64,000 nt of DNA. Source: Pelobacter propionicus DSM 2379 (lineage in GTDB: Bacteria; Desulfobacterota; Desulfuromonadia; Geobacterales; Pseudopelobacteraceae). A program made the position numbers and the translations under genes. Below, piece by piece: positions 8,891 through 14,134 of the stretch; position 1 is the first letter of the stretch, and each line of letters starts with the position of its first letter. The notes below the pieces were generated by a model. That model was not told where the DNA came from. It made no database searches and saw nothing but the letters and a program-made list of their open reading frames with translations. Location: assembly GCF_000015045.1 (NCBI RefSeq), contig NC_008609.1, positions 3,262,001 to 3,326,000 on the forward strand, given 5' to 3'.

Positions 8891-10495
8891 CTACTTCCCA
8901 TCACCCTTCCTGGCCACCTGCATGGCGTCGTTCAGGATCCTGACCCCGGCCTTGGAGGCGGCTATGGAGCCGGCCAGGCTTTCGCGGGCAAGGTCGGGAT
9001 TGTGGAAGCCGTCCGAGTTCTCGGCGGTCCAGTACTCCCACAATACATGGGCCTCCTCGTGCTTCTCCCGCGCCTGGGCCAGCACGCTCTCCGTAACCCC
9101 CATGCGCTGGGCAGCGACATAGCTGTCGATCAGCTGCCCCAGCCAGTACTCCGACTTGCGCATCTTGCCGCTGATGTAATTCCGCACCGCCTCGATCTGG
9201 TAGAGCTTGCGCTCAACGGTACTGTCGGGATGACATCCCAGGCAGGACTCTCTGACGTGGTTTTTGGGACGGATCACGCCATGGTTGGAGAAGGACTTGC
9301 CGTTTTTCCCTTTCTGCTGTGGCATGTGGCACTGGTGGCACTGAACGCCGGCCCTGTCGTGCACGCTGCCGGCATAGGTCTCGGCCTCGGGGTGCTGGAA
9401 CTTGACCAGACGGGCGCCGGTTATGGCGTGCTTGAAGTCGTAGAAGTCGAGCTCCCTGTAGTGTTTGAGGAGCTGCAGCGAGTTCCGCAAGGGGAAGTGG
9501 TTGGTGCGGCGGTCGTCGAATCCCACCTTCGCGCCGTCGCTCCACTGGTTGCCGGCATTGCAGTTGTACTCAACGTGGCACTGGGCGCACATCATGCGCG
9601 AGTCGACCTTCTCCATGACGCCGATCTTGCGGAAACCATCCCTGAAGGAGATCATCCTCAGATCGGTCCTGCCGTTTCTGGCGAAGATGTTCGTTGCAGG
9701 CTCCTTTTCAATGGCCTGGATCAGTGCGTCACGCACCACGCGCGGCTGAGTGCCGTGGGGGTCGTGGCAGTGGATGCAGCCCATGGGGTTGTTGGTATCC
9801 TTGGCAATCGCCACGACATCCGATCCGCGGTCCCATTTCGCCTTGGGATCCCTGTCCCCCAGGAATTTCCACCTGAGAATATGGTCGGAGCTCTTGCACT
9901 GGATGCAGGTGGGGTTACCCGCCATGGCGGTCTCGGGCAGCTTCCTGCCGGTGTCGGTCAGCACGTCCCAGGTCTTGCCGGTCCTGTCCACCCCCTTCCA
10001 GCCATCCCTGTACTGGAAGCGCCCCCCCTGGAAGCGGTCCACGATGAACTGGTCCGTGACCATGAAGGCATGGCCGCGGGGTTCGGCATGTTCGAAGGTG
10101 AAACCGTGGCCGGCCAGGAGCTTGTCCTGCATGGGGGAGCGGCCGGTGGGGATGCCCTTTTCCCTGCGGGCATGGGCCTCGTAATTCACCGTGACAAAGC
10201 TGCCGTACTGCTGTTTGTGGCACCTGGCGCAGAGGGCCTGATCGATGACCGTCACCGGCCTGCTGCTCTCGGGATCGTTCATGTGTTCATCCATTTTGCC
10301 ATGGCAGGTCGCACAGGAAAGGGAGGCATGGCGTGACCCCTCCTTGAGAGCCTTGACCTCTTCATGGCATTCGTAGCACTGCGCCCGTCCGTCATTGGCC
10401 GGTTTAGCTTTGGCGGCGGTGGTCAGGACCGGGAGCGACAACAGCGCCAGCGTCCCGATAACGGCCGCGGCACACGCCAGAGTATTCTTCCGCAT
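8891..10495 (-). CDS. Octaheme cytochrome c, ONR/TvNiR-type nitrite reductase
   Basis: A 534-residue exported cytochrome with a Sec signal peptide (residues 1-29). There are eight heme c sites: seven CxxCH (CYECH at 40-44, CATCH, CARCH, CIHCH, CAQCH, CHQCH, CLGCH) and one CxxCK (CIQCK), which is fourth in order. A lysine-ligated fourth heme in an octaheme protein is the hallmark of octaheme nitrite reductases; NrfA has the same CxxCK but only five hemes. CAQCHVEYNC contains a tyrosine with a cysteine two residues later, the spacing of the Tyr-Cys crosslink described in Thioalkalivibrio TvNiR. The likely reaction is six-electron reduction of nitrite (also hydroxylamine or sulfite) to ammonia in the periplasm. 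It is monocistronic, without an NrfH-like donor beside it. The start at 10495 has AAAGGAGA upstream. Other multiheme oxidoreductases are less likely given the CxxCK. Confidence 0.88.
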   Translation of the reverse strand: MRKNTLACAAAVIGTLALLSLPVLTTAAKAKPANDGRAQCYECHEEVKALKEGSRHASLSCATCHGKMDEHMNDPESSRPVTVIDQALCARCHKQQYGSFVTVNYEAHARREKGIPTGRSPMQDKLLAGHGFTFEHAEPRGHAFMVTDQFIVDRFQGGRFQYRDGWKGVDRTGKTWDVLTDTGRKLPETAMAGNPTCIQCKSSDHILRWKFLGDRDPKAKWDRGSDVVAIAKDTNNPMGCIHCHDPHGTQPRVVRDALIQAIEKEPATNIFARNGRTDLRMISFRDGFRKIGVMEKVDSRMMCAQCHVEYNCNAGNQWSDGAKVGFDDRRTNHFPLRNSLQLLKHYRELDFYDFKHAITGARLVKFQHPEAETYAGSVHDRAGVQCHQCHMPQQKGKNGKSFSNHGVIRPKNHVRESCLGCHPDSTVERKLYQIEAVRNYISGKMRKSEYWLGQLIDSYVAAQRMGVTESVLAQAREKHEEAHVLWEYWTAENSDGFHNPDLARESLAGSIAASKAGVRILNDAMQVARKGDGK

Positions 10496-10528
10496 CAGAC
10501 TTCTCCTTTCCCCGTGAATTGGTTGCCT

Positions 10529-10547
10529 TGTCATGACAGGAAGTATA
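10529..10547 (-). promoter_or_regulatory. Putative promoter -10 and palindromic operator upstream of the octaheme cytochrome
   Basis: On the minus strand TATACT (10542-10547) resembles a sigma-70 -10 box and is followed within 3 bases by the perfect 10-bp palindrome TGTCATGACA (10529-10538). No good -35 is visible. A palindrome just downstream of the -10 would suit a repressor. The regulator is unknown. Confidence 0.35.
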
Positions 10548-10663: not shown

Positions 10664-11128
10664 ATGTCATTGGAAGGAAAAAAAGCCCCTGACTTCACCC
10701 TGGAGGGGAGCGACGGCAAACAGCACAGCCTGAGCGAGTACGCCGGGAAAACGGTCGTCATCTATTTCTACCCCAAGGACAACACCCCCGGCTGCACCAA
10801 GGAGGCCTGCGGTTTCCGGGACAACCACGGGAAACTTGACGCTAACAATATCGTTCTGCTGGGCGTGAGCAAGGACAGTATCGCGTCCCACAACAAGTTC
10901 ATCAGCGCCTTCGGGCTCCCCTTCGTGCTGCTATCCGACCCGGAGACCACCATGATGCAGGCCTATGGCGCTTTCGGGGAGAAGGTGGCCTGCGGCAGGA
11001 AAACCGTCGGCATCATTCGCTCCACGGTGGTGATCGATGCCGACGGAATCGTGAAAAAGCAGTGGCCCAAAGTCGCCAAGGCTGAACAACACCCAGCCCA
11101 GGTCCTCGACTATTTGAATATCCCGTAA
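10664..11128 (+). CDS. bcp: Thioredoxin-dependent peroxiredoxin, Bcp/PrxQ type
   Basis: A 154-residue cytoplasmic peroxiredoxin that reduces H2O2 and organic hydroperoxides using thioredoxin. The active-site segment NTPGCTKEACGFRDNH contains the peroxidatic Cys and the resolving Cys five residues later, the atypical two-cysteine arrangement of the BCP/PrxQ group. Length matches the family (about 155). AAGGAGG is placed 6-7 bases before the ATG. A plausible promoter lies upstream. The YceI-family gene follows after 29 bp, so the two may be co-transcribed as an oxidative-stress pair. Confidence 0.93.
   Translation: MSLEGKKAPDFTLEGSDGKQHSLSEYAGKTVVIYFYPKDNTPGCTKEACGFRDNHGKLDANNIVLLGVSKDSIASHNKFISAFGLPFVLLSDPETTMMQAYGAFGEKVACGRKTVGIIRSTVVIDADGIVKKQWPKVAKAEQHPAQVLDYLNIP

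Positions 11129-11779: not shown

Positions 11780-14134
<2,355 letters not shown>

Follow-up and report, generated by a model that had tools for sequence, protein, structure and literature searches.

An octaheme cytochrome c nitrite reductase, in all likelihood of the standard TvNiR type, in Pelobacter propionicus DSM 2379

The stretch of DNA analysed here (64 kb, below called the window) carries a gene whose product is, with very high probability, a true and standard octaheme cytochrome c nitrite reductase (ONR) of the TvNiR/TaNiR family, its proposed function included. Judged from its sequence, the protein is full-length, has every catalytic residue in place and very probably converts nitrite to ammonium in the periplasm; no feature of the sequence argues against this assignment. 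The Tyr-x-Cys pair near its active site is a fixed and already published mark of the whole ONR family; it is nothing unusual in this genome and no sign of something special there. The enzyme adds a further well-formed example to a known family and is of ordinary significance. The genome offers a clear instance of ONR alongside NrfA with no detectable nitrate reductase.

The gene and its product

The features of the gene, its surroundings and the related clusters elsewhere in the genome are collected in Table 1. The open reading frame has exactly the bounds listed. The ATG at 10495 is favoured over an upstream ATG at 10534 because a good ribosome-binding site stands directly before it. The ligand order of the eight hemes is HHHKHHHH, and the segment CAQCHVEYNC occupies residues 303-312, so that Y310-N-C312 comes immediately after heme motif 6.

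Table 1. Features of the ONR gene, its product and related loci (window positions unless a contig is named)
Feature	Position	Strand	Basis or remark
ONR coding sequence	8891..10495	(-)	534 residues; ORF translation, homology and alignment
Probable Sec signal peptide, about residues 1-30 (MRKNTLACAAAVIGTLALLSLPVLTTAAKA)	10406..10495	(-)	Hydrophobic N-terminus, by eye from sequence
Ribosome-binding site, aaggagaag (with the preceding a, aaaggagaag)	10499..10509	(-)	By eye; precedes the ATG at 10495
Heme motif 1, CYECH, residues 40-44	10364..10378	(-)	Motif count/alignment
Heme motif 2, CATCH, residues 61-65	10301..10315	(-)	Motif count/alignment
Heme motif 3, CARCH, residues 89-93	10217..10231	(-)	Motif count/alignment
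Arg154, active-site Arg131 of TvNiR	10034..10036	(-)	Alignment; invariant in 90 sequences
Heme motif 4, CIQCK, residues 197-201; predicted catalytic heme, ligand Lys201	9893..9907	(-)	Alignment; Lys invariant in 90 sequences
Heme motif 5, CIHCH, residues 240-244	9764..9778	(-)	Motif count/alignment
Heme motif 6, CAQCH, residues 303-307	9575..9589	(-)	Motif count/alignment
Tyr310, catalytic Tyr303 of TvNiR	9566..9568	(-)	Structure-database match, alignment, 90-sequence set
Cys312, cross-linked Cys305 of TvNiR	9560..9562	(-)	Structure-database match, alignment, 90-sequence set
Gln367-His368, Gln360-His361 of TvNiR	9392..9397	(-)	Alignment; QH form as in Ca2+-dependent enzymes (PMC11972089)
Heme motif 7, CHQCH, residues 386-390	9326..9340	(-)	Motif count/alignment
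Heme motif 8, CLGCH, residues 418-422	9230..9244	(-)	Motif count/alignment
Peroxiredoxin (AhpC/TSA, Bcp-like), divergent neighbour	10664..11128	(+)	Near ONR in 25 fetched relatives
Phosphonate-type periplasmic binding domain fused to PAS/histidine kinase	11780-14134	(+)	Downstream of the peroxiredoxin and YceI genes
One nrfHA-hcp cluster (L135)	C1:79344-86287		Near hcp and an HcpR/FNR-type palindrome
Other nrfHA-hcp cluster (L136)	C3:1250999-1256685		Near hcp and an HcpR/FNR-type palindrome

Family identity

Among solved structures the protein matches best the octaheme nitrite reductase chain 8rv0/8rvm/8rxu (E = 4e-245, 69% identity). The TvNiR entries come next (E about 3e-166), and pentaheme NrfA chains score far lower. 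E values of this size for a solved ONR and for TvNiR exclude a chance match. The first chain, which we take to be TaNiR of Trichlorobacter ammonificans (the listing names the molecule only), shares with the window protein 69% identity over 490 residues, the identical segment CAQCHVEYNCN, the order of the hemes and the bacterial order of origin. TvNiR of Thioalkalivibrio nitratireducens (2ot4, 2zo5 and others) is a haloalkaliphilic gammaproteobacterial enzyme and carries short insertions that the window protein lacks. It is 52% identical in a global alignment which pairs Y310 and C312 with Tyr303 and Cys305 without gaps and gives the further correspondences R154=R131, K201=K188, Q367=Q360 and H368=H361 (TvNiR residues numbered as in the deposited chain), all six residues being conserved.

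As defined in 2017, the family has seven CXXCH motifs, one CXXCK motif and an active-site Tyr, Arg and Cys, and a Geobacter sulfurreducens protein was given as a case (PMC5433712). The window protein has precisely this set, with the Lys motif fourth, and its full-length identity to known ONRs (52% and 69%) lies above the 40% that serves as the criterion of membership. GsNiR, the G. sulfurreducens protein, is a Geobacterales ONR that was assigned to the family in that work and described by means of a homology model (PMC5433712). The sequence-only reading of this DNA had counted eight heme sites with CxxCK as the fourth and a Cys two residues past a Tyr in CAQCHVEYNC, and had taken the protein for a true ONR and not a generic multiheme cytochrome. 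The motif count confirms the first two points, the identity to solved ONRs supports the third, and the alignment places both the Tyr-Cys pair and the Lys-ligated heme where they are in TvNiR, so that neither of the two grounds for refutation named in that reading applies.

Hydroxylamine oxidoreductase (HAO) and octaheme tetrathionate reductase (OTR), which have eight CXXCH motifs and no CXXCK, are ruled out by CIQCK at residues 197-201; no chain named HAO or OTR was found among the solved structures matched by the window protein. A structure prediction from an alignment of eight sequences was poor (pLDDT 49).

Proposed mechanism

The mechanism is modelled on the characterised enzymes (PMC5433712, PMC8840924, PMC12142623). 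By analogy with these, the protein would be exported, loaded with eight c-type hemes and assembled as a hexamer. The seven bis-His hemes would pass electrons to heme 4, which is predicted to be ligated by Lys201 and to bind nitrite, and Arg154, His368 and Tyr310 would steer the six-electron, eight-proton reduction of nitrite to ammonium. A thioether between Tyr310 and Cys312 would improve the Tyr as a proton donor. No gene for the electron donor lies beside the ONR gene.

TvNiR, a hexamer, forms ammonia from nitrite and from hydroxylamine, and sulfide from sulfite (PMC5433712, PMC8840924). The in vivo role of TaNiR in nitrite ammonification is described as proven (PMC12142623), and the ONR of T. 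lovleyi is upregulated in nitrate ammonification (PMC11972089). The likely role of the window enzyme would be nitrite ammonification or detoxification alongside two NrfHA systems.

Genome setting

The genome has one ONR, two NrfA and two NrfH. The earlier statement that no NrfH-type donor gene adjoins the ONR gene is correct: heme motifs were found in no other predicted gene of the 64-kb window, and both NrfH genes lie elsewhere in the genome. In a profile search of the genome for NapA and NarG the best matches were far below the family cut-offs, and with the NapA of the nearest congener as query the matches did not exceed 192 bits, in two pieces of 36-38% identity, against 970-1825 bits for true NapA matches in Geobacterales. 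The plasmid collection yielded only distant NrfA matches. Because the genome yielded no Nap- or Nar-type nitrate reductase, nitrite reaching the enzyme is probably of external origin. T. ammonificans differs in this respect, its ONR working with Nap and without NrfA (PMC11972089), whereas the genome studied here has two NrfHA systems and no detectable Nap.

ONR occurs in 100 of 141 Geobacterales genomes (E <= 1e-80). Among these 100, NapA is present in 36, NarG in 39 and neither in 42, and 14 of the 39 genomes with both ONR and NrfA, the present one included, have neither Nap nor Nar; the genome counts take in incomplete genomes, so that the absences are upper bounds. The napA gene lies within 10 kb of the ONR gene in 25 of the 100. 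According to a recent review, the co-existence of ONR and NrfA still lacks a physiological explanation (PMC12285233).

A quick tree places the window ONR as sister to that of L085 (support 0.76) inside a group of four (0.94). NapA is present in all three other genomes of the group (G123, G103, G108), and in two of them next to ONR; napA adjoins ONR in the closest relative, and the window ONR has no nitrate-reductase neighbour. Loss of nap in the present genome is the simpler reading, with modest support.

Two ONR genes per genome were seen in G080, G103, G120 and G122, and in G103 the second copy shares no more than 47% identity with the window protein. Three loci (L052, L056, L066) from metagenome bins labelled Holophagaceae, Acidobacteria and Geothrix also have ONRs, 68-70% identical to that of the window, through either gene transfer or mis-binning.

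On the upstream side the ONR gene is flanked by divergent genes for a peroxiredoxin and then YceI, and downstream by genes for a chemotaxis receptor and a GGDEF/EAL protein. In 25 relatives a peroxiredoxin gene lies in the fetched flanks, in many cases head to head with ONR; a functional tie between the two was considered on the ground of position only.

Regulation and role

The palindrome TTGAYnnnnRTCAA, which includes the published Geobacter HcpR motif TTGACnnnnGTCAA (PMC1274295), was scanned for in the fetched loci. Of 105 loci, 46 have it within the 400 bp preceding ONR, a number which overstates the independent cases because many loci are closely related or duplicate, and it is about 34 times denser there than elsewhere in these loci. 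Its usual place is 50-130 bp before the ONR start (for instance in L006, L009, L042 and L046). The 64-kb window contains no match, and the palindrome is also absent upstream of ONR in the closest relatives, L004/L085 and L084. Each of the four places at which the whole 4.2 Mb genome has the 16-base form is at or close to one of the two nrfHA-hcp clusters, and an additional 14-base match precedes the second nrfH. Since the palindrome is absent at the window ONR and sited at the nrfHA-hcp clusters, the window ONR is probably outside the HcpR/FNR-type regulon.

With the adjacent nap presumably lost and no HcpR/FNR-type site at ONR, while the two nrfHA-hcp clusters carry such sites, the enzyme may be uncoupled from nitrate respiration and have a constitutive or different role, acting on external nitrite, hydroxylamine, sulfite or peroxide. 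This proposal is tentative and rather improbable; if true, it would bear on the retention of ONR and NrfA side by side in some genomes.

A related alternative holds that the protein is an ONR by descent which now serves mainly as a multi-substrate stress reductase for hydroxylamine, sulfite and peroxide, its nitrate-reductase partner gone and a peroxiredoxin gene adjacent. Consistent with it are the failure to find Nap and Nar in the genome, the peroxiredoxin gene, which adjoins ONR here and is near it in other loci, a rubrerythrin-like gene (named by eye from sequence) near ONR in 13 other loci, and the reduction of hydroxylamine, sulfite and H2O2 by TvNiR (PMC5433712). The active site, however, is unchanged, the predicted nitrosative-stress palindrome is missing, and the peroxiredoxin gene is on the opposite strand, co-location in any case not being function. 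Such a shift of role is judged unlikely, and nitrite reduction is preferred.

The Tyr-x-Cys pair

The sequence-only reading had regarded the Tyr-x-Cys pair and the Lys-ligated heme as unusual marks for a Geobacterales protein. This part of it is not supported, given the frequency of ONR in the order, the invariance of the pair and a literature which already names G. sulfurreducens (PMC5433712, PMC12285233). In the fetched loci, 109 of the 113 multiheme ORFs matching the window protein have CxxCHxEYxC, some of the 113 being the same gene fetched twice. One (L055) has CAQCHVDYAC, in which Glu is changed to Asp and the Tyr and Cys are kept, and the remaining three are pentaheme NrfAs without the Cys. 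A set of 90 ONRs, with identical sequences merged and with TvNiR, the window protein and the solved 8rv0 sequence among them, has the Arg, Lys, Tyr, Cys and His without exception. Between Tyr and Cys stands Asn in 61 of them and Ala in the other 29.

We infer from the sequence that the Tyr-Cys thioether forms in the window protein. It might be argued that the bond needs conditions specific to Thioalkalivibrio and does not form here in spite of the presence of both residues, the more so as the literature surveyed demonstrates it only in Thioalkalivibrio enzymes. Against this stand the full conservation of both residues in the 90 ONRs compared and a review which counts the Tyr-Cys link among the general features that set octaheme apart from pentaheme enzymes (PMC12285233), and a missing bond appears very doubtful. 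In a myoglobin model of TvNiR, a methylthio-bearing tyrosine increased hydroxylamine reduction 4-fold (PMC11273360).

The two pentaheme NrfA paralogues of the same genome share with the window ONR a homologous catalytic part, the CxxCK heme and the Tyr. They differ in having five hemes, an NrfH partner and no Cys after the Tyr (CAQCHVTYNI and CAQCHVTYVI). That the window protein is itself an N-terminally extended pentaheme NrfA whose Cys is incidental, as the match to Pfam Cytochrom_C552 and weak matches to the NCBIfam NrfA models might suggest, has next to no probability and is refuted by alignment and scores: the NCBIfam scores are 126.2 bits against a cut-off of 595 and 103.7 against 692.5, the protein has eight hemes, its identity is 52-69% to ONRs versus about 31% to the NrfAs of its own genome, and the Cys, invariant in ONRs, is missing from the three NrfAs inspected.

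The QH form before Pro-Glu denotes the Ca2+-dependent class, as used in PMC11972089. The window ONR has KFQHPE, and both NrfA copies of its genome have RHPE. The ONR of L055 (8001-9611, on a contig of low coverage, about 2x) is the sole one of the 90 in which Arg replaces the Gln of QHPE (KIRHPE); because the RH form marks Ca2+-independent enzymes in NrfA, it may be a Ca2+-independent ONR.
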